From: a virus
Direction: 5' to 3' (one strand)
Length of the DNA stretch: 64,000 bases
IMG/VR virus record: IMGVR_UViG_3300021959_006010
Coordinates: 62,001-126,000 of that record
Shown here: piece by piece, positions 28,343 through 37,460 of the stretch
Layout of the letters: each line of letters begins with the position of its first letter
Position numbering within the stretch: the first letter of the stretch is position 1
Notes under the pieces: generated by a model
Database searches by the model: none
What the model was told of the DNA's origin: nothing
The model's input: the letters and a program-made list of their open reading frames with translations, nothing else
Position numbers and translations under genes: made by a program

Positions 28343-28977
28343 GTAGAAAATACTTTTTTATTGTCAAAAGCACGTTCCCATCCAAAGAACTGTGCTTTAT
28401 AATCCGAATGATCGTCTGAACTTAGATTTTCCCATTCGTCCTTACGTTGGTATAAACGCATTGCACCGTCATACCAATCAGTGTCGTCTATAATTTTTTC
28501 TAGACGTTCTTTTGCAGCATAGGCAGATTCTACATTGTCAAAATCTTGTTCTATGTGTATCACTTCCATTACAATGTCGTGTGTAACAAAATCCAAACTA
28601 AAATCAATACCCCATTTGGGTTTAATGTTTAGCAATTTTTGAAGTATTGGGCGATTTTTGCATACTTCTTCTATTTGCTCTCTTGCTTCTCCGGCAAACG
28701 CATAACGAGTTAATAGCATACAGTGATCTAGTACAAGCCCGTGTTCGCTTTGTTCTACGTCCGTGTACCATTCTTGCACCGGAGCAATATGATATTGTAT
28801 TTCTCTGTTGAGTTTAACACCGTTTGCTTCGTAGTGCAAATGTTCTAAAGGAGTTGGAACCTCGTAACCGTCCTTGTCAAAATCTTTAAATGGAAGTGTT
28901 TCGACTTGTAGTCGTGCTATTGGTTTGCGAAGAAATGGATCTGGATCGAACTTAGGGTATAAGTTCTGAAGTATCAT
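28339..28977 (-). CDS. Phage protein of unknown function (212 aa)
   Basis: 212 residues, acidic, soluble. It begins MILQNLYPKFDPDPFLRKPI, and later segments such as WGIDFSLDFVTHDIVMEVIHIEQDF suggest a beta-rich core. It overlaps the 418-residue gene by 4 bases (ATGA). I do not recognise it. Confidence 0.72.
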   Translation of the reverse strand: MILQNLYPKFDPDPFLRKPIARLQVETLPFKDFDKDGYEVPTPLEHLHYEANGVKLNREIQYHIAPVQEWYTDVEQSEHGLVLDHCMLLTRYAFAGEAREQIEEVCKNRPILQKLLNIKPKWGIDFSLDFVTHDIVMEVIHIEQDFDNVESAYAAKERLEKIIDDTDWYDGAMRLYQRKDEWENLSSDDHSDYKAQFFGWERAFDNKKVFST

Positions 28978-30230
28978 CCGATCTCTTTTGCTCCCATACG
29001 ATCTAATGCCATATCAATTTGAACAGCTAATTTAAAATCATCCGTTGTAAGGCCTTTTGTATCGTGTGTGTATACAACAAGCTCTACTTCGTTATAAAAG
29101 AACTTGATATCTGCAAAATGATCTAATTCAATCTGTGGTTTTTCGATAACCATTAAGAAACGTAGTACAGTGTTGTAATCGTCAAACGCTACTTTCTTAT
29201 ATAGATATTTTCCTTTACGTATTTCCCAATCTTTAGCATATTCTTTACGTAACGCTTCGGCGTCCATGCCATCAACTTTGGTATATGACTCGCCCATTAT
29301 TTTACCTTTGTGTTTTTCTTTTCGTGGTAAAACTTTTTTCTTATCTTTGTGTGCGCCCATTGCACCACTTTTGCGTAAATCTTGCATAGTTTGTGCATTT
29401 GGATCACGTGGTTTAATTTTTGGCTTATCTTTGTATGCTTCTAGTGCTTTTAATAAACTATCTTTAATAGTTCCGGTTCCCTTGGCAGCATCTTTTAGTG
29501 TAAATGGTTTTCCATTTACATCTGTTATTTGTTGTCTGCTGATAGCAAAATTTGCTCCTTTTAGAGTGAGCTTTATCTGCGGTCTTCCTTTACCATCTTT
29601 TTGATTTACTAACAAACCTATTACAGGTGCAGTTCTTTTCTGTCCTGTTGAATTAGTATAGGTAACGTTATCTCCTTTTTTAAGAACATAACCGTTGTCA
29701 CTAACAGGCCAATCTTCTTTTGGTTGAGCGTCTGGAGTTACTTTATCTGCTTGAGGTTTTTCCTTAGGTTCTTTTTTAGGAGTTTTTTCTTTTTTATCAA
29801 AGCTCATAGGAGCCAATGCATCAATTTTATTATATTTGTCAAAGCCTTGTCTAAACGCATCACCTGCTGTTGGATTTTCTTCAAGATCGTTGTCTATACT
29901 ATCTCCAACAAGTTTATCTTTTAGAGGATGTTCTGTACGCCCAGGTTCCGCAGTTGGCCAAGGATCTGATCCTTTTGCTTGACCACTAGAACCTGTTTTT
30001 TGTCGTTCGTCTAATCTTACACCAGCAAGTGCTGCAAAATCTGTTATGGAATAATCTTTATCCAAGCCTAAACTACCTTCGGTCACTTCTGCACTTTCTT
30101 GTAGATAATTTGTTGTAGGTGCTACATTATCTATAGGCTGTCCAGCTTGCGCTTTTAATTTTGCAAGGTCTTCTCTAGGATCACTTGGATCCAATGCAAA
30201 TAGTTTTTGTTGTAGTGCGTGATAATCCAT
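28974..30230 (-). CDS. Large protein with C-terminal pterin-4a-carbinolamine-dehydratase-like domain
   Basis: 418 residues. The first 300 residues are polar, Lys/Pro-rich and probably disordered, with a beta segment near 185-250. The last ~100 residues (KKVAFDDYNTVLRFLMV, then YNEVELVVYTHDTKGLTTDDF) match the DCoH/PCD fold, including the THD.KGLT..D motif. The usual HHP catalytic pair is reduced to a single DHF, so it may not be enzymatic. DCoH domains can also act in protein binding. It lies in a block of probable virion-associated proteins. Confidence 0.65.
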   Translation of the reverse strand: MDYHALQQKLFALDPSDPREDLAKLKAQAGQPIDNVAPTTNYLQESAEVTEGSLGLDKDYSITDFAALAGVRLDERQKTGSSGQAKGSDPWPTAEPGRTEHPLKDKLVGDSIDNDLEENPTAGDAFRQGFDKYNKIDALAPMSFDKKEKTPKKEPKEKPQADKVTPDAQPKEDWPVSDNGYVLKKGDNVTYTNSTGQKRTAPVIGLLVNQKDGKGRPQIKLTLKGANFAISRQQITDVNGKPFTLKDAAKGTGTIKDSLLKALEAYKDKPKIKPRDPNAQTMQDLRKSGAMGAHKDKKKVLPRKEKHKGKIMGESYTKVDGMDAEALRKEYAKDWEIRKGKYLYKKVAFDDYNTVLRFLMVIEKPQIELDHFADIKFFYNEVELVVYTHDTKGLTTDDFKLAVQIDMALDRMGAKEIG

Positions 30231-30322
30231 TATTCTTTAGCCATTTTAGTTGCTGTTGCGTACATTACTGCTTCTGCATCTTTGCCATAGCGTTTTTTAA
30301 AATCGCCTTTGGCTTTCTTCAT
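30230..30322 (-). CDS. Continuation frame of the upstream gene (30 codons from ATG)
   Basis: The frame reads MKKAKGDFKKRYGKDAEAVM and ends ATATKMAKE, a C-terminal type I recall on many marine-phage proteins. It is either a coupled micro-gene, the ATG overlapping the upstream TGA (ATGA), or the natural C-terminus of the 180-residue protein reached by a -1 shift at the A9G tract 20-30 bases before. See findings. Confidence 0.6.
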   Translation of the reverse strand: MKKAKGDFKKRYGKDAEAVMYATATKMAKE

Positions 30323-30861
30323 ACCTTTAACGTATTTCTCTTTTTTTTTGATTCGTCCTTAGTAAGTGTACGTTCTGCAAGTTTTGCAGCTAAAGAGCTT
30401 TTGTAATCGCTGTCTCTTAACTTCTTCTTACTTCTTTTACCTGATGCTTTTGCTGCGTGTATAGCTTTGCGTTGTGCAGCAGACTTGAACTTACCTTCGT
30501 TAACAGCATTGCAGTTACAGTGCTTACAAGTCGGCGGACATGTACAATCTTCTGCTTTAACATCAGATCCACAGCATTTGTCTGAACAATGTGTATCCTT
30601 TGCTTCTCCTAGTTCGCCTGTTGCTTGTTCGTAATCTAAACTATGATAGACACTTCCCATGTAATCTGCTGCTTTGGTAATTTTAGCTTGTTGCCAGCCT
30701 TCAATACCTTCTTCTTCAGAAACACCTTTTAGCATATCGTGTAGTTTGATAGCATACTTTGCAATCTTATATAGATCAGCACGAGCCATTTGCACTTCGT
30801 GGTCACGTTCTGCACGATCTGCAAGGTCACCTAAACCCTCTTTGATCTCATTTTCTTTCAT
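30319..30861 (-). CDS. Cys-rich phage protein with IKE-G N-terminus (180 aa)
   Basis: 180 residues. It starts MKENEIKEGLGDLADRA, matching a prohead-protease-like I-x-E-G site. The middle (about 109-137) holds nine cysteines in CSDKCC, CTCPPTCKHCNC patterns, likely a metal-binding knuckle. The C-terminus is Lys-rich. It ends in ESKKKRNTLKV unless a shift at the nine-A tract extends it by 36 residues. A late-type promoter lies 30 bases upstream. Confidence 0.72.
   Translation of the reverse strand: MKENEIKEGLGDLADRAERDHEVQMARADLYKIAKYAIKLHDMLKGVSEEEGIEGWQQAKITKAADYMGSVYHSLDYEQATGELGEAKDTHCSDKCCGSDVKAEDCTCPPTCKHCNCNAVNEGKFKSAAQRKAIHAAKASGKRSKKKLRDSDYKSSLAAKLAERTLTKDESKKKRNTLKV
30341..30350 (-). 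promoter_or_regulatory. Candidate -1 frameshift site (nine-A run followed by G)
   Basis: In the coding sense C-A9-G sits in frame as TCA AAA AAA AAG, which gives a dnaX-type A-AAA-AAG heptamer. A -1 slip joins the frame to one ending in ATATKMAKE. Equally, a homopolymer sequencing error could create the break. Confidence 0.45.
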
Positions 30862-30882
30862 TGAAAAACTCCGTAATTCGCA

Positions 30883-31815
30883 TTATAGTGTATTTATCTT
30901 TTCCTTTGTACAAGTAATATCAAAATTACAATGACACCAATCCTTGTTACACAATATAGGCTCGTTTGGTAACTCTAATTTATCATCAAATATATTTCCG
31001 ATATTACCACCAACGCCGCACCAGCCTCTACTAATTTTACCGTCAAGGAATACAATAAGTTGTTCTATGCCAATATGACAATTCCATCCATTCCAGTTAT
31101 TCATTTTAGAATTAACTAGCTCGTTGGCTCCGTAATCAACATCTTTGTACGTCATTTTTCCTCTCAAATAAGGAAAACGTTTTGTTTTTATGACTTTATC
31201 TTTGATATTTTTTTGTTGATCTTTTATTAATTGATGCTGTTCGTCAGTATATGGATATAAGTCTCCACTTAAATCATATAACAACGGTTGCAACGATATT
31301 GTTAAATTACCTAAGTCTTTTATAGTATCTGCAACATCATAACAATAATCAAAATTCTTAGGATCCATCATAATATTTACATGGGTTCGAAGATCATTGT
31401 GCAGTATTTTAACTACATCTATAAAATGATCTTTGTTTGCATACTCATGATGGAAACTTAAATTAATTGAACTAAAATATTTTTTGTTAGCTTCCCACCA
31501 CCTTAATGATCTACTACCATTACTAATCAGTCCTACTTTAATATTGTTATCTGAACAAAGTTTACACAACTGATCAAAGTGTTTATAAAGCGTAATTTCT
31601 CCACCAGTAAATTCAAAGTAGAGCTTTTTATTAGGAAAAGATGTTTTTATTTTATTAACAAACCTTTCTACATAAGAAATGTCAGGCCACTTAGTTGATC
31701 CATCGTGTAAGATGTCAGGACAATAACTGCAATTAAAATTACAAGTGTTGCCTAAGCACCAATTTACGATAAACCAGTCTTTATGAGAAGGATCTGAATG
31801 TGTTAATGTTTGCAT
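30883..31815 (-). CDS. Radical SAM protein (310 aa)
   Basis: 310 residues from ATG 31815. CNFNCSYC (residues 24-31) is the CxxxCxxC cluster site, and FEFTGGEITLY (68-78) is the GGE motif. The C-terminal part has several cysteines (WNCHIG, GWCGVGG, CNKDWCHCNFDITC), a SPASM-like auxiliary cluster region. These enzymes often modify peptides or cofactors. It lies near another, split radical SAM gene at 32.2-33.2 kb. Confidence 0.86.
   Translation of the reverse strand: MQTLTHSDPSHKDWFIVNWCLGNTCNFNCSYCPDILHDGSTKWPDISYVERFVNKIKTSFPNKKLYFEFTGGEITLYKHFDQLCKLCSDNNIKVGLISNGSRSLRWWEANKKYFSSINLSFHHEYANKDHFIDVVKILHNDLRTHVNIMMDPKNFDYCYDVADTIKDLGNLTISLQPLLYDLSGDLYPYTDEQHQLIKDQQKNIKDKVIKTKRFPYLRGKMTYKDVDYGANELVNSKMNNWNGWNCHIGIEQLIVFLDGKISRGWCGVGGNIGNIFDDKLELPNEPILCNKDWCHCNFDITCTKEKINTL
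30891..30898 (-). promoter_or_regulatory. T4-late-like promoter element GATAAATA
   Basis: GATAAATA on the minus strand, 30 bases before the ATG of the Cys-rich gene. It lies within the end of the radical SAM gene. Confidence 0.55.
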
Positions 31816-31835
31816 TAACAATACTTATTTGTAGT

Positions 31836-32216
31836 TTATTTTTGACGTTTACTTTTGGATTTCTTTTTCTTAGTGCGTGTAACCATACCAGGTCCACCAT
31901 TGACAAAGCCGTTCCCACCACCCATACTAGAACCAATATCTCCAGCAACGGTTTCGTTTAGTCCTGCTTTATACCCGTCTTCATACTCGCTAGTGCGTGG
32001 ACCGTATGCATCACTAGCCTTAGGATCCATTTTACCTGTTTTACCATCAGCAAAACCTTTTTTCCAAATTGTGCTCTTATCAGCATGTGGATCATTTATA
32101 TCGTATGCTTTTCCTTTTGACTTTTGTACAGGCTTCGTTTTAGCAAACTTTGCTCTTAAATCAGCAGCAACGGATTTTTCCCAATCCCTACCTTCTAGTA
32201 AATCTCTAATTTTCAT
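31836..32216 (-). CDS. Basic protein with LLE-G N-terminus, probable virion-internal protein (126 aa)
   Basis: 126 residues starting MKIRDLLEGRDWEKSVAADL. The LLE-G fits the (L/I)-x-E-(A/G) pattern of T4 prohead protease sites, and the rest is basic, ending TKKKKSKSKRQK, like a packaged or internal DNA-binding protein. It contains a Gly-rich stretch (MGGGNGFVNGGPG). It overlaps the downstream end of the SPASM frame. Function inferred, not shown. Confidence 0.7.
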   Translation of the reverse strand: MKIRDLLEGRDWEKSVAADLRAKFAKTKPVQKSKGKAYDINDPHADKSTIWKKGFADGKTGKMDPKASDAYGPRTSEYEDGYKAGLNETVAGDIGSSMGGGNGFVNGGPGMVTRTKKKKSKSKRQK

Positions 32217-32544
32217 CTGTTAATTTCCTTTGTTTATGGTGCGTACCAGACTTAACTCTACAAGTATTATTACATTCTCTAAAAGGTACATCAGACCAGG
32301 AGTTTTCGTATTCTTTAAAAATGCCTTTTTCTACTATTGTATTAACAGAAAACTTTGTTACATCATTAAAGTCGTTGTCAAACTTCTTTTCTTTAAAAAA
32401 TCTTTCTGTAAAACTACTATCTGTATTTAGTATTTGAGTTTCTTGATAGTCAAACGCTGACCAGCAACAATAAAACAATTTTTTATCTGCAGAAAGATAT
32501 ACACTATTTTCTTTTTTAGCAAAGCAATCTATTTTATCCGTCAT
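32206..32544 (-). CDS. SPASM-type C-terminal half of a split radical SAM protein
   Basis: 112 residues. It begins MTDKIDCFAKKENSVYL and contains LFYCCW and RECNNTCRV, the cysteine pattern expected in a radical SAM auxiliary (SPASM) domain. It starts 11 bases before the preceding 217-codon radical SAM frame ends, in the +1 frame. Together the two give about 330 residues, the usual length of a radical SAM/SPASM protein. It may be translated alone or joined by a frameshift. Confidence 0.6.
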   Translation of the reverse strand: MTDKIDCFAKKENSVYLSADKKLFYCCWSAFDYQETQILNTDSSFTERFFKEKKFDNDFNDVTKFSVNTIVEKGIFKEYENSWSDVPFRECNNTCRVKSGTHHKQRKLTDEN

Positions 32545-33187
32545 AATCTATAACCTTTGTAGCAGGATATATTGTATATAGTTTTTTATAATCTTTATCT
32601 AAAACATCTAAATGATCTTTCCAAAATCTGTTTGAAGATCTTGCTTTAAATTTTTTAAATCCTAATTCTTTTGCTAACATTTTACAGTCATCTACTTGGT
32701 GTTCATTATGGCGGAAAACATTCATAGTCCATATAGCAGTTCCGCCTTCGTTAATAAAACATTTAGCATTATTAATTATAACATCGAATCTAGTATTTCG
32801 TCTATATAAATGATGAGTGTCTTCTAGACCATCTATACCAAATTCAATTAAAACGTTATTAATTCCTAACCATTTCCAAAAATTAATATGTTGTGCTCCA
32901 CCGTTAGTATTAATGTGTACTTCTATATTTCTTTTTAAAAATTCGTTAATAAATTCTTTAGGATGAGTATGCTTAACTATGTCTCCATAATTTCCATTAA
33001 TTAAAACTTTTTTTAAGTTTTTGAAATACGGATCGTCAAGCGTCTTAGCTATGTCCTTTGCTGACCATTCAGTTATAGACAAACCTTCTTTTAAATTAGG
33101 ACTTGCTCCGCTGTGTCTCATACATTGGGGGCACCGAGCATTGCAATCAGTAGTCGGCTCAATGTGCAAACTTGTTGGTAAGGTCAT
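32534..33187 (-). CDS. Radical SAM protein, N-terminal part (split gene)
   Basis: 217 residues from ATG 33187, which overlaps the upstream stop as ATGA. CNARCPQC (14-21) is the CxxxCxxC site, and the TIM-barrel strand LINGNYGDI follows. The frame ends at KVIDYDG without a C-terminal auxiliary domain; that domain lies in the next frame (32206-32544). No homopolymer lies at the junction, so a programmed or true mutational frameshift or a split gene are open options. Confidence 0.78.
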   Translation of the reverse strand: MTLPTSLHIEPTTDCNARCPQCMRHSGASPNLKEGLSITEWSAKDIAKTLDDPYFKNLKKVLINGNYGDIVKHTHPKEFINEFLKRNIEVHINTNGGAQHINFWKWLGINNVLIEFGIDGLEDTHHLYRRNTRFDVIINNAKCFINEGGTAIWTMNVFRHNEHQVDDCKMLAKELGFKKFKARSSNRFWKDHLDVLDKDYKKLYTIYPATKVIDYDG

Positions 33188-33354
33188 TTTAAGTATTTTT
33201 GGTATGTTTTCCAATAATTCTGACGTTCATTTGTGCTTGCTCGTCGAGCTTCGTGTTCTTTTATTTTAGCAACATAATGACTTGTTTCTATGCCACTATT
33301 GTTCGGATATAGTTCTACTACTTTTTCTTCCGTCCCGACTTCATGTTTGCGCAC
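33184..33354 (-). CDS. Small charged protein, GTG start (56 aa)
   Basis: An open frame of about 56 codons lies between the end of the 245-residue gene and the radical SAM gene. It has no ATG; the best start is GTG 33354, overlapping the upstream gene by 37 bases. It reads RKHEVGTEEKVVELY and ends YWKTYQKYLK. Its stop forms ATGA with the next start, which supports translation. Unknown function. Confidence 0.5.
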   Translation of the reverse strand: MRKHEVGTEEKVVELYPNNSGIETSHYVAKIKEHEARRASTNERQNYWKTYQKYLK

Positions 33355-34055
33355 CAATGATACATCCTCGCTTTCTCACCTGAGCTATTCTTGGCTCGTT
33401 TTCTTAAACTTGTAACACTACCATTGCAACTAGCACCTGCACGTTTTACACGCCCTGGTCTGCTTTTGCCTTTTTTCTTACCATCTGCAAAGTTTTCTAA
33501 CTGTGCAAATAAATCACTGCGTTTTTTAGTTGTTTCTTCTATACTATGTCCGCCCTCCATAAGAGCAAGTTCCATAGGAGTAAAACGTTCACTATAAGCT
33601 TTATCTGTTGCTGCTTTTGCCTTTTCAGCATCAGGATGCTTTGGATTAATAGTTACAACTTCGCCGTTGATTAATTCTGCTATATTTGCACTCTTACCTA
33701 TAGTATCTAACAATTGATGTAAGTCGTCATTAGGATCATAGTTACCGCTTTCGTAGCCTAGTTTGCCACGTACTTCTGTGCGATGCCCTGTTTCAGTATT
33801 TTTAATATGCAACACAAGCATTTTTTTATCTCTTTCTAGTTGTAACTTATAACCTTCAGTTAATCCTAGATTGAATAGTACGTTAGTTGACTTGCCTTTT
33901 ACCTTAGAACTTAGTGTAGGAGGCTTTCCGTCTTTGTCAACAGTGTTACCAAATTTTGCTGCTTGCTTTTTAATTTCGTTTGGTCCTACATCAGCTGTTG
34001 TATTAACACCTTTAACAATTCTTCCTACAGCTTCGTCTAGATCATAGATTTTCAT
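33318..34055 (-). CDS. Probable virion-internal protein with LDE-A N-terminus and Cys-containing basic tail (245 aa)
   Basis: 245 residues. It begins MKIYDLDEAVGRI with an L-x-E-A site. A folded part follows (TEGYKLQLERDKKMLVLHI near 66-84). The C-terminus is strongly basic with the module ASCNGSVTSLRKRAKN...HWC, resembling the tail of the 36894-37460 gene. The mix of a protease-like site and basic ends fits a packaged protein. Confidence 0.68.
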   Translation of the reverse strand: MKIYDLDEAVGRIVKGVNTTADVGPNEIKKQAAKFGNTVDKDGKPPTLSSKVKGKSTNVLFNLGLTEGYKLQLERDKKMLVLHIKNTETGHRTEVRGKLGYESGNYDPNDDLHQLLDTIGKSANIAELINGEVVTINPKHPDAEKAKAATDKAYSERFTPMELALMEGGHSIEETTKKRSDLFAQLENFADGKKKGKSRPGRVKRAGASCNGSVTSLRKRAKNSSGEKARMYHWCANMKSGRKKK

Positions 34056-34270
34056 TTTAGATCGTCCCTAAACTCTTCTACGTAGTAATCCATAGGTGTG
34101 TCTGATTTAAGTTCGAACCACTCTCCGTCTGCGTTTGTTCCGCTCAGTAACTTGGGTGTTTTCTTTTTAAAATCTTTTACAATAATACGACGATCCTTGC
34201 CACGATGTGTTACTTCTAACACGTACCAAGGGTTCCAACTTCTCCATATTCTTTTAAAAAACATTCTCAT
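34052..34270 (-). CDS. Small phage protein (72 aa)
   Basis: 72 residues beginning MRMFFKRIWRSWNPWYVLEV, with a basic, aromatic N-terminus and an acidic end (YYVEEFRDDLK). Overlaps both neighbours by 4 bases. Not recognised. Confidence 0.65.
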   Translation of the reverse strand: MRMFFKRIWRSWNPWYVLEVTHRGKDRRIIVKDFKKKTPKLLSGTNADGEWFELKSDTPMDYYVEEFRDDLK

Positions 34271-34389
34271 TTTTTATCTTCTTTACAGTTACATTTAGTA
34301 CATACGTCATTTACACATTTAGGACAATCTGGAGAATAACAATGACAATCGTGTCCACATGTTTTGCATTCTCTTTTTGATCCTATCAT
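34267..34389 (-). CDS. Cys-rich micropeptide (40 aa)
   Basis: 40 residues with nine cysteines in C-x2-C, C-x-C, C-x2-C and C-x2-C-x-C spacing (CKTCGHDCHCY then CPKC, CTKCNCKED). The spacing is metallothionein- or zinc-ribbon-like. ATGA overlaps at both ends. Related in pattern to the cysteine block in the 180-residue gene (CTCPPTCKHCNC). Confidence 0.65.
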   Translation of the reverse strand: MIGSKRECKTCGHDCHCYSPDCPKCVNDVCTKCNCKEDKK

Positions 34390-34604
34390 TTTTTACGCCC
34401 TCGAAATCCATTGTTACCTGTTAGTCCTGGTAAACTGAACCATAGTTTAAACCACTCATCTGTACCAGGTTGTATATTTTTCTCACGTTCGATTTTCTTT
34501 TTTTCAGTACCTGATATTGATAAATTTTCTTCTACTTGGTATAACTTGTAACCTGTGTACTTGTTACGTATACCTGCTAAGTGTTGGAGATCTTCGATTT
34601 CCAT
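34386..34604 (-). CDS. Small phage protein with PGTDEWFKLWFSLP motif (72 aa)
   Basis: 72 residues. The C-terminal PGTDEWFKLWFSLPGLTG followed by GFRGRKK is a phrase I associate with small marine-myovirus proteins, function unknown. It overlaps the nucleotidyltransferase gene by 28 bases. Confidence 0.68.
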   Translation of the reverse strand: MEIEDLQHLAGIRNKYTGYKLYQVEENLSISGTEKKKIEREKNIQPGTDEWFKLWFSLPGLTGNNGFRGRKK

Positions 34605-35473
34605 GCGTCTTTATCTCCTTTAGCTGCTGCTTTGCGTCTTGCTGCAATCTTGTCTTGTATGCTAGGTTCAAACTTTTCTTTTTTCTTTTTAACTGTAGCT
34701 TTCTTAGAAGATTTACCAGCAGCATATCCCCAAATTTCATCTACTTCTTTTTTCTTCTTTTTCTTTTCGTCTGAACTATGACCAAATGTTTTATGTACAA
34801 GTTTGTCTAGTTTTCTGTGGAATTCATCTTCTTCGTCTGGTGACGCATCTTCGCCGACTGGTGCTTCAGGATCACCTAGTGCTTGATTTAACAATTTTAC
34901 AGCAACAGGAGCACCATTACCGTACATAAGTTTAGCAGCCTTTAGTTTATCTTCGTCTGACATTTCAGGCCAAGTAGCTCTTAGCTCACTTGCACTTTTA
35001 ATCTGCATACCTGAAAAGTCAAAGTTAATAGTAGGACCATATGCCATATAGCCCATTTCATCTGCTGTGTTTAGATCTTTACCTGTGTAACTACGCAAGT
35101 ATCCTGGCTCGCCATTCTTTTTAGTTTGATCTGGAAGCGGCTGTTCAGCTTTATCCTTCTGGCTTCGAACAAATACTAGTGCTGTGTCTCCGTCTAATAG
35201 ATCTGCGTACTCTCTGTTGTTAAAAGGTGACTTAACCTGCATAAAGTTACTTTCAGGAACACCTGCCATTGCTGCTAGTTTCTTTTTAACTTCAAACGGA
35301 AACGGTCTTGCTTTAGTATCGTTAGTTGCTGCAACATAAACATTCTTTTGACCGAATGTTTTTACTGCCCAGTCATATAAACTTTTATGTCCAGGATGGA
35401 ATGGATGGAAACCGCCTGGCATTACAGCTACAATACGTCTTGCTTTCCCTTCAAATAACTCTCTTAATAACAT
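34577..35473 (-). CDS. Nucleotidyltransferase (cytidylyl/adenylyl-transferase fold) with LFE-G N-terminus
   Basis: 298 residues. It begins MLLRELFEGKARRIVAVMPG, where LFE-G fits the prohead-protease-type site just before the catalytic domain. PGGFHPFHPGHKSLYDWA (near 19-36) is the HxGH motif, and the domain ends near SASELRA (~163), matching the ISATxxR helix. The C-terminal third is Lys-rich (KKKKEVDEI) and basic. NMN adenylyltransferase or a related transferase are the nearest known functions. Likely virion-packaged by inference. Confidence 0.8.
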   Translation of the reverse strand: MLLRELFEGKARRIVAVMPGGFHPFHPGHKSLYDWAVKTFGQKNVYVAATNDTKARPFPFEVKKKLAAMAGVPESNFMQVKSPFNNREYADLLDGDTALVFVRSQKDKAEQPLPDQTKKNGEPGYLRSYTGKDLNTADEMGYMAYGPTINFDFSGMQIKSASELRATWPEMSDEDKLKAAKLMYGNGAPVAVKLLNQALGDPEAPVGEDASPDEEDEFHRKLDKLVHKTFGHSSDEKKKKKKEVDEIWGYAAGKSSKKATVKKKKEKFEPSIQDKIAARRKAAAKGDKDAWKSKISNT

Positions 35474-35476
35474 AAC

Positions 35477-36565
35477 TTAGTTCGGTTGCCAACGTGATCT
35501 TGGTACTAGTTTAGTTTTAGTATCAAGAGCAACGTAGCCTTCGCCTCCCTTTTCACCTTGTGTTGATTGTTTAACATCAGTATCAGCATCGTCAAGTTGA
35601 TTGATAATATGATCTTTAACAGTCATTACTTTTTTAACAAGACCAAAAATAGCAGGAAGTGCATTAGGCATTGTTTCGTTCATAGCTGCTAATTTTGCTT
35701 GTTGATTTTTGCTAACTTTTGATGTTTCTAGCCAATCAAAGAACCCGTTTTCAATGTCTCCTAGCTTTTGTACTTTACTCATTTGATTCATATATGTGTA
35801 AATAATCCCAGGAACATTACTTAATCCAGCTTGTCCTTCTAAGAACTTATCCATTATTCCAGCATGTCTTTTTGCCATACTTCTAATTTCTTCAACTTCG
35901 CTTGTATCTACACTAGGTTGATGTGTTACATAAGTTTGTCCTAGAACAACAGCACCTTCTGAATTAAGTTCATTTACATCTGAAATAGGTTTTCCAGCTT
36001 TACCCCCAAATTCGTTAATTTTTGTGTGGACAACAACACCAACTTTACTACCTGCTATGCGTTTACCAAGTTCGCTATTTTTGCTCACTGTGTATGTAAC
36101 TTTATTAGGGGTAAATTCTATACTTCCGTCTTTTATTTCGTATGGCTTTCCAGGATGATATAATATATCACCGTAAATATAACCACGGAAACCTTCCGGA
36201 GTAGCTTCTTTCATAACATCAAATATGCCAGCCATTTCGTTTGCAAAACGCTCACGCCAGTCTTCGCCTTTTCCTGTGCTTAAAATAAACTTTTTAAGAT
36301 CTTCTGCACTAGTTGACTTATTTCTTCCCCAGCCGTTTTTACCTACAAGTACAAAATCGCCATTCTCGTCACGACCATAATACATAGTAGGATAACCGTC
36401 CCATTTAATAGCAATGTCTGAACTGTCAGAACCCATTTTTTCTAAGGTATCAGCTGCCTTCATTGCACCTTTAGAACCTTCAATAAAGACAAGGTCTTCT
36501 AAATGTTGATATTCTCTACCTACTTTTGCTTCTGTTAAAATTGGACGGAATTCTGAAAATCTCAT
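35477..36565 (-). CDS. DUF6267-like protein with ligase-type KxDG motif and LTE-A N-terminus
   Basis: 362 residues. N-terminal FRPILTEAKVG is another L-x-E-A site. Residues 54-57 are KWDG (AIKWDGYPTMYYGRDENG), the adenylation motif of nucleotidyltransferase-fold ligases, with YIYGDILYHPG later as a possible motif III-like segment. A complete DNA or RNA ligase motif set is not visible, so the activity is unclear. I associate it with the phage DUF6267 family from memory. The C-terminus is hydrophilic. Confidence 0.65.
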   Translation of the reverse strand: MRFSEFRPILTEAKVGREYQHLEDLVFIEGSKGAMKAADTLEKMGSDSSDIAIKWDGYPTMYYGRDENGDFVLVGKNGWGRNKSTSAEDLKKFILSTGKGEDWRERFANEMAGIFDVMKEATPEGFRGYIYGDILYHPGKPYEIKDGSIEFTPNKVTYTVSKNSELGKRIAGSKVGVVVHTKINEFGGKAGKPISDVNELNSEGAVVLGQTYVTHQPSVDTSEVEEIRSMAKRHAGIMDKFLEGQAGLSNVPGIIYTYMNQMSKVQKLGDIENGFFDWLETSKVSKNQQAKLAAMNETMPNALPAIFGLVKKVMTVKDHIINQLDDADTDVKQSTQGEKGGEGYVALDTKTKLVPRSRWQPN

Positions 36566-36900
36566 TAATAAGTTCCCTTACAAACTTCTTCCAGTTCTTC
36601 TTCTTTTAAACGTTCGATAATATTATCAATATCGCTAGGAGGAAACATAACGCCTGCTGGCTTGGGCATATTGTATTTTTTACAATATTGTTTTGCTGCA
36701 TCAACAACTACTGGACGCATTGTTTCTGCAAAGCTAAATTCTTCTTTATTTCTATAACAATCGCTCATTTTACTTAACGCTGGAAACAAACTTTTGCGAT
36801 AAATCACCGGATCGTTCTTCATAAAAACCATTAAATCCTCTGCAGGATTAAATGGTAAAGAATCATCGATTGGTTGTGTAAACTCTACAATTTTTACCAT
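36565..36900 (-). CDS. Phage protein of unknown function (111 aa)
   Basis: 111 residues from ATG 36900, overlapping the upstream gene by 7 bases. Helical; ends ERLKEEELEEVCKGTY. Contains VDAAKQYCKKYNMPKPAG near 77-94. No motif recognised. Confidence 0.7.
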   Translation of the reverse strand: MVKIVEFTQPIDDSLPFNPAEDLMVFMKNDPVIYRKSLFPALSKMSDCYRNKEEFSFAETMRPVVVDAAKQYCKKYNMPKPAGVMFPPSDIDNIIERLKEEELEEVCKGTY

Positions 36901-37460
36901 TTTCTGCAACTCCAGTAACGTGCTTTAGTGCGTGGACCAGGATTGTCACAGTTGTGTCTAGCACGGAAACTTCTTCTACGTGCTGGATTACTCTTTTTAA
37001 TCTTCATATTAGGATCACCAAAGTTAACTTTCTTAACGTTTTTAGTCTTAGGATCCTTAACATACACTTTAAACTTTTTAACATCGCCACGCATTGGCTT
37101 GCCTAGTTTAACTTTACGACCTTGATATTCCGCTTCGTCCATTTCGTCATCTTCGTTGAACCACATAACACCGTATTCTAAGAAGAAATCATCGCCGTCG
37201 TATGTTTCTTCTGTAATATCTTCACCTAGTTCAGACGAAATTTCAATGTCAAAGTCATCGTAACCTTGTTCAAACATATAGTCTGCTAAACGGTTAGCAT
37301 ATTCATCTGATTCTTCTTCGCTTAGTTGACGAGGAAGTGCAATTTCGTATACTGTAGCACCTTGTTCGGTTTCGTAAACTTCTTGTTCTGCAAAAATACT
37401 CTCGTCTAGTAGTTGAGCATTTTCTTGTTTTTCCATTACTATTCTTACAAAGTGTTCCAT
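36894..37460 (-). CDS. Acidic protein with basic Cys-containing tail (188 aa)
   Basis: 188 residues. The body is acidic (ESDEYANRLADYMFEQGYDD) and the C-terminus turns basic: RSFRARHNCDNPGPRTKARY followed by WSCRKW. That C-x(n)-KAR-x-W-x-C tail resembles the end of the 33318-34055 gene. It occurs, as I recall, on several proteins of marine myoviruses. Function unknown, possibly capsid- or DNA-associated. Confidence 0.7.
   Translation of the reverse strand: MEHFVRIVMEKQENAQLLDESIFAEQEVYETEQGATVYEIALPRQLSEEESDEYANRLADYMFEQGYDDFDIEISSELGEDITEETYDGDDFFLEYGVMWFNEDDEMDEAEYQGRKVKLGKPMRGDVKKFKVYVKDPKTKNVKKVNFGDPNMKIKKSNPARRRSFRARHNCDNPGPRTKARYWSCRKW

Follow-up and report, generated by a model that had tools for sequence, protein, structure and literature searches.

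Introduction

The capsid-targeting sequence of phage T4 is MKTYQEFIAE. In this leader residues 4 and 7 act in targeting and residues 8 and 10 in processing, and an Asp at position 10 blocks the cutting (PMC9026906). The T4 internal proteins IPI-III and Alt, which are cut by gp21, carry a short N-terminal leader with hydrophobic residues three apart and a Glu at the cut, with unrelated bodies behind one tag. Here we describe a block of genes with leaders of this kind in a 64,000-nucleotide stretch of viral DNA (the window; positions 62001-126000 of the 275,366-base record IMGVR_UViG_3300021959_006010). As in T4, the protease, the capsid protein and the portal are of T4 type, here in colinear relatives. 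In contrast to IPI-III and Alt, the leaders usually have 8 rather than 10 residues, the P1′ residue may be D, W or N, the bodies include a HIGH-family nucleotidyltransferase and a DUF6267 protein, and many of the proteins are mosaics with internal Phi-x-E junctions (Phi, hydrophobic). The best explanation of the whole is that these genes encode a modular head cargo that is tagged and then processed by the prohead protease, an explanation that we consider likely with good confidence.

Other described systems share part of these features. In phiKZ and SPN3US, large phages with S80 proteases, head proteins are also cut after Glu, at several sites per protein, and ejection proteins are present, but the motif there is A/S-x-E behind long propeptides, whereas here it is a hydrophobic-x-E and the modules reassort. 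The polyvalent proteins (Iyer et al. 2017, PMC5512222) are likewise multidomain, domain-shuffled and predicted to be packaged, and the analogy with polyproteins was already made for them; they are processed by peptidase domains of their own, whereas here the borders of the modules are marked by putative sites of the head protease and the protein begins with a T4-type tag. The virion NMNAT/cytidylyltransferase of cyanophages S-CREM2 and S-SCSM1 is a related HIGH-family enzyme with a T4-like leader; it belongs to a different nucleotidyltransferase subfamily from that of the window, and the passages of the two reports that were consulted do not name a targeting leader (PMC10665884, PMC9602691).

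Conserved leaders on unrelated proteins

A first-pass annotation of the window had proposed that five genes share the ending (L/I)-x-E before A or G known from T4 gp21 targets. All five were recovered as open reading frames on the minus strand, with the coordinates and N-termini that it had given (Table 1), and further leader-bearing genes elsewhere in the record make the tagged set larger than these five. Across the 324 genes called in the entire 275-kb record, the motif [LI]xE[AG] with its Glu at residues 5-15 reached 3.93 per 1000 positions, compared with 1.3-1.5 over most of the remaining protein length and 0.93 at residues 26-35. A regular expression for the tag, devised after examples had been seen, matched 11 of 341 N-termini versus 4 of 1463 internal Met residues (p = 6e-6, 12-fold odds ratio).

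Scans of IMG/VR provided 155 loci of relatives for the comparison of leaders, and an alignment slack of ±2 residues was allowed when the Glu was counted in homologues. In the alignment of homologues, which the annotation had suggested as a check, conservation of the N-terminal Glu was observed in 40/40 sequences of the 30319 family (families are designated by the first position of the window gene), 49/50 of the 33318, 36/36 of the 34577 and 13/13 of the 35477 family. The 31836 family is thinly sampled in the body alignment, where a single close homologue aligns through the junction. Furthermore, a separate scan for DUF6267 returned 51 distinct genes, all 51 with Phi-x-E ahead of the body; in the model of the window's DUF6267 protein residues 1-18 are disordered and the rest is confident. 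The typical leader in relatives is M-[KR]-Phi-x-[DE]-Phi-x-E, with 5-17 and mostly 8 residues, terminated by the Glu. P3 was Leu, Ile, Val or Phe in 108 of 113 distinct leaders, and the hydrophobic residues three apart lie at positions 3 and 6 in most of them, more weakly in the 30319 family. The Phi-x-E ending is therefore conserved as predicted, but the restriction to A or G behind it was too narrow, P1′ being G in 42 cases, A in 37, D in 23, W in 6 and N in 2. That these leaders combine a tag with a protease site is, in our judgement, highly probable.

Phi-x-E junctions between exchanged modules

Exchange of modules was observed between proteins, so that modules found behind a leader in one protein recur inside longer mosaic proteins of other phages. 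For 12 modules, the internal occurrences whose upstream 12 residues are mutually <45% identical were collected, which gave 127 contexts. The junction residue was Glu in 123 of these mutually unrelated contexts, and P3 was Leu, Ile, Val, Met or Phe at 81% of the junctions, versus 24.5% at other Glu and 27% at Asp residues of the same proteins (p = 1.3e-37); P2, P4 and P5 were not enriched (15-17%). Because the upstream sequence is unrelated between contexts, the P3 signal cannot be explained by homology of the modules. The first-pass annotation had missed cut sites within proteins, and the Phi-x-E mark at module borders is the stronger and newer result: a T4-type leader on head cargo is known, and the Phi-x-E sites between swapped modules are new here.

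In the window, PVGE208↓DASPDEE in the 34577-35473 protein is a module junction (arrows mark predicted cut sites), and the module behind it recurs after DISE↓ in the relative's locus L120. The module of the 34386-34604 protein is found in relatives behind a tag or within mosaic proteins. In an AlphaFold model of the 33318-34055 protein (predicted local distance difference test score of 56, i.e., low confidence, so that the order/disorder edges alone were used), residues 68-166 are ordered, with edges at 67/68 and 166/167, and this stretch is flanked by LTE67↓ and LME167↓. When the basic NFADGK module was used as the query, no cultured phage was recovered.

Head genes and virion proteins of relatives

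The terminase of the record is nearest to those of jumbo T4-like phages, e.g., PA5oct and Phosso. The latter, a Sinorhizobium phage, has a leader-like N-terminus of its own, MRYAEILKLLE↓DGKVVKGVNTT. A relative of 256,558 bases (G001) has 161 genes in common with the record in largely the same order, and also carries a tagged gene block. Its portal, scaffold, protease and capsid genes were observed at 62-120 kb, in the region that corresponds to where the window's record ends, with Pfam matches all well above cut-off (Peptidase_S77, the family of T4 gp21, 9.6e-26; Gp23, 4e-103; Portal_T4, 2e-108), and a gp21-type protease is present in relatives G003 and G007 as well. The capsid protein of G001 starts with MSELLESRWQETKGALLE↓G, with ..GALLE↓G, the same type of site as in the cargo leaders. 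A side observation concerns PA5oct gp212 (NC_071039.1 180349-181020) and positions 160481-161098 of the record: RefSeq names gp212 'head maturation protease', the N-terminus GERSWDIYSRLLKERIVF is ClpP-like, and the true gp21-like protease of PA5oct is gp331, not gp212.

Nucleotidyltransferases of cultured T4-like cyanophages start with MKNFSSFLTE↓ADEKQQQAPK (S-CREM2), MKSFLQFLKE↓AAESGASVQAK (S-SCSM1), MKKFSAFLSE↓A (Syn9) and, in others, with similar leaders, whose hydrophobic residues lie at positions 4 and 7. A virion-associated NMNAT/cytidylyltransferase reportedly occurs in S-CBWM1 and S-SZBM1 too. The enzyme was reported, from mass spectrometry, in CsCl-purified virions of both S-CREM2 (PMC10665884) and S-SCSM1 (PMC9602691). 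A profile restricted to the window's families gave a modest signal in PA5oct, where 5 of the 8 top-scoring leaders belong to proteins detected by mass spectrometry versus 81 of the 341 others (p = 0.024). This profile replaced a first test in which 6 of 7 were detected, as the regular expression used there had been devised after viewing the list. The proposal of the annotation that a gp21-type capsid-targeting leader stands on unrelated cargo is thus strongly supported, apart from its A/G rule, by the Glu conserved across families, by Peptidase_S77 in colinear relatives and by the tagged nucleotidyltransferase reported in virions of relatives, and the T4-type capsid-targeting reading of the leaders is very probably right.

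Enzymes of the proposed cargo

The 34577-35473 protein matched Pfam CTP_transf_like with 23 bits (cut-off 21) and has the HxGH motif FHPFHPGH; TIGR00125 remained below its own cut-off. The 35477-36565 protein matched Pfam DUF6267 (5.6e-25, 88.9 bits, cut-off 27). Its body had been called KxDG ligase-like, and the KWDG is indeed invariant in 16 homologues, as are EGxV and a K-L-V motif. These motifs resemble those of covalent nucleotidyltransferases, but a Foldseek search with the model gave no significant fold (nothing at E < 0.001), the weak matches including T4 RNA ligase 2 and LigD. A PHROGs search left 4 of the 5 tagged proteins without a match. In mosaic proteins of relatives the cargo domains include Cu/Zn superoxide dismutase, 5′-nucleotidase-like and ParB-like domains, and in locus L094 the superoxide dismutase domain is bordered by VYE↓A on one side and by LNE↓T on the other. 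As a separate observation, such Cu/Zn superoxide dismutase domains, flanked by Phi-x-E sites, occur in the mosaic phage proteins L094:3829-6708 and L097:4678-6708.

A model of cargo processing and its alternatives

For this phage we infer cleavage, packaging and injection as follows. The block would encode proteins carried as cargo in a phage head of T4 type, and the leader would dock each of them in the scaffold core of the prohead. A gp21-type prohead protease would then cut after the Glu of Phi-x-E so that the leader is removed, and the mosaic cargo would in addition be split at the Phi-x-E module borders into separate mature proteins within the head, a polyprotein processing that we regard as probable. 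The basic and Cys-rich modules would probably be associated with the packaged DNA, and the enzyme modules (nucleotidyltransferase and DUF6267, and in relatives superoxide dismutase, 5′-nucleotidase-like and ParB-like domains) would be delivered into the host together with it. It also seems rather likely that, in jumbo T4-like phages, leader-addressed modular polyproteins are cut at Phi-x-E borders and deliver enzymes and DNA-binding peptides with the genome, the cut site being at the same time the border at which modules are exchanged. Cleavage of the internal sites, if it occurs, would make the head protease a processor of cargo polyproteins as well, and a phage could then swap its delivered enzymes via module exchange. 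The motif also offers a sequence rule by which head cargo can be recognized in jumbo and T4-type phages, whose head-associated proteins mostly lack a name, and a possible reason for the recurrent nucleotidyltransferases in cyanophage virions, which their authors left unsettled.

Several observations weigh against this reading. The 30319 family has the weaker leaders, MKENEIKE being the least typical tag. Typical cyanophage DUF6267 homologues (S-WAM1, P-TIM40, Syn1 and S-RIM32) lack the entire leader, which indicates that the tag is a detachable feature and not part of the DUF6267 enzyme family, and that the enzyme also exists unpackaged. The authors of both virion studies could not exclude carry-over of abundant proteins (PMC10665884, PMC9602691); the T4-like leader on the cyanophage nucleotidyltransferases supports packaging. 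An overall shift in rank was absent in PA5oct (Mann-Whitney p = 0.62). The gp21-like protease that the annotation had expected elsewhere in the genome was found in the colinear G001, but a search of the window's own truncated record for Pfam Peptidase_S77, Gp23 and Portal_T4 gave no match, and a search of it with the PA5oct head proteins gave no homologue; the truncation accounts for the head genes not found, since the missing stretch matches the 62-120 kb region of G001. Finally, the Glu at a junction could be part of the module that follows, which leaves the P3 pattern as the sole signal independent of homology.

In an alternative confined to the head, tag and cleavage could be right and the cargo could act in the head only, in DNA condensation or core assembly, rather than as injected effectors. 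This is a possibility of some substance, yet a doubtful one. Many of the modules are small, basic or Cys-rich, and lysines of T4 internal proteins touch the packaged DNA (PMC3012670), but it is not obvious what nucleotidyltransferase, superoxide dismutase, 5′-nucleotidase-like and DUF6267 domains would do in a filled head, and in T4 both the internal proteins and Alt are injected (PMC3012670, PMC5512222).

We consider it unlikely that the leader alone is cut and that the internal Phi-x-E are uncut linker remnants of module fusion, the mosaics then being multidomain proteins like the polyvalent proteins. A module that changes from an N-terminal to an internal position would be expected to take its Glu with it, and T4 internal proteins are known chiefly for the removal of their leader; however, P3 lies in unrelated upstream sequence and is nevertheless hydrophobic in 81% of the contexts, which a pure remnant would not restore each time, and T4 Alt, gp22 and SPN3US proteins have several cut sites each (PMC5694885). 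It is very improbable that the leaders serve as docking peptides that stay uncut, or as a common translation-start context, with the Glu as part of each domain: conservation of the bodies does extend as far as the Glu, and cleavage is itself a prediction, but the Glu is kept despite leader lengths from 5 to 17 and unrelated modules after it, the same Glu closes the leaders of five unrelated families, and the P3 rule is protease-like. Equally improbable is a role of the junctions as recombination sites in the DNA at which modules are shuffled, with the protein motif as a by-product. In its favour, 119 of the 123 junction Glu residues are encoded by GAA, a stronger bias than at the remaining Glu of these proteins (p = 9e-5), though one module with 52 contexts may cause it; against it, a DNA site would fix bases and not residue classes, whereas P3 is Val, Leu, Ile, Met or Phe from many codons and P2 is variable.

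Other features of the block and the record

The coordinates of the tagged and related genes are collected in Table 1. The 28974-30230 protein starts with MDYHALQQKLFALDPSDP, and the family-wide start MDFNALQHKLFALDPSDP is a different conserved N-terminal type in which the canonical leader is absent. In the 36894-37460 family a Glu is present in most of 57 homologues at a variable distance from the Met; this family had been intended as a negative control and was dropped as such because the Glu is largely conserved there too, so that it is counted as a possible member only.

Table 1. Leader-bearing and related genes of the window and the rest of the record (arrow, cut site predicted after the residue to its left)
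Feature	Position	Strand	N-terminus (leader nt)	Internal sites and remarks
Window
Mosaic module protein	28974-30230	-		C-terminal pterin-4a-carbinolamine dehydratase domain after MGE314↓S
Tagged mosaic protein, 180 aa	30319-30861	-	MKENEIKE↓G (30861-30838)	GLGDLADRAERDHEVQMARADLYK module after leader; Cys-rich CSDKCCGSDVKAEDC (AKDTHCSDKCC) after GELGE86↓A; basic GKFKSAAQ after NAVNE122↓G
Tagged basic protein, 126 aa	31836-32216	-	MKIRDLLE↓G (32216-32193)	Probable site LNE88↓T ahead of SSMGGGNGF module
Tagged mosaic protein, 245 aa	33318-34055	-	MKIYDLDE↓A (34055-34032)	(LG)LTE67↓G before GYKLQLERD; LME167↓G; E187↓N, without aliphatic P3, before NFADGKKKGKSRPGRVKRAG
Module protein, 72 aa, NLSISGTEKKKIE...EWFKLWFSLP	34386-34604	-	Leader not canonical	Candidate site QVEE26↓N
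Tagged HIGH-family nucleotidyltransferase, 298 aa	34577-35473	-	MLLRELFE↓G (35473-35450)	
Tagged DUF6267 protein, 362 aa	35477-36565	-	MRFSEFRPILTE↓A (36565-36530)	KWDG at residues 54-57
Possible sixth member, membership uncertain	36894-37460	-	MEHFVRIVMEKQENAQLLDE20↓S	phrog_7595; different leader
Elsewhere in the record (record positions)
Leader-bearing gene	177208-178452		MRFREFKLYHQPTVLTE↓G	
Leader-bearing gene	206066-206455		MKINEVIVE↓A	
Leader-bearing gene	252391-252948		MKSLKEYITE↓S	Homologue of PA5oct gp282, marked as detected by mass spectrometry

Untagged genes also lie within the block, namely two radical SAM genes (window 30883-31821 and 32534-33214) and a 40-aa Cys-rich open reading frame (MIGSKRECKTCGHDCHCYSPDCPKCVNDVCTKCNCKEDKK, window 34267-34389). 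A late-promoter-like (G/T)ATAAATA is located 37 bp upstream of the 30319-30861 gene, the motif starting at 30898. For 33 of the record's 344 genes, many of them structural, this T4 late promoter-like sequence is present in the 60 bases upstream. Outside the window, positions 16000-58000 of the record hold a long run of plus-strand genes that, judged by their N-termini, may encode cysteine-rich radical-SAM/SPASM-like proteins, sugar-nucleotide enzymes and the like; the run looks like a surface or peptide-modification island.

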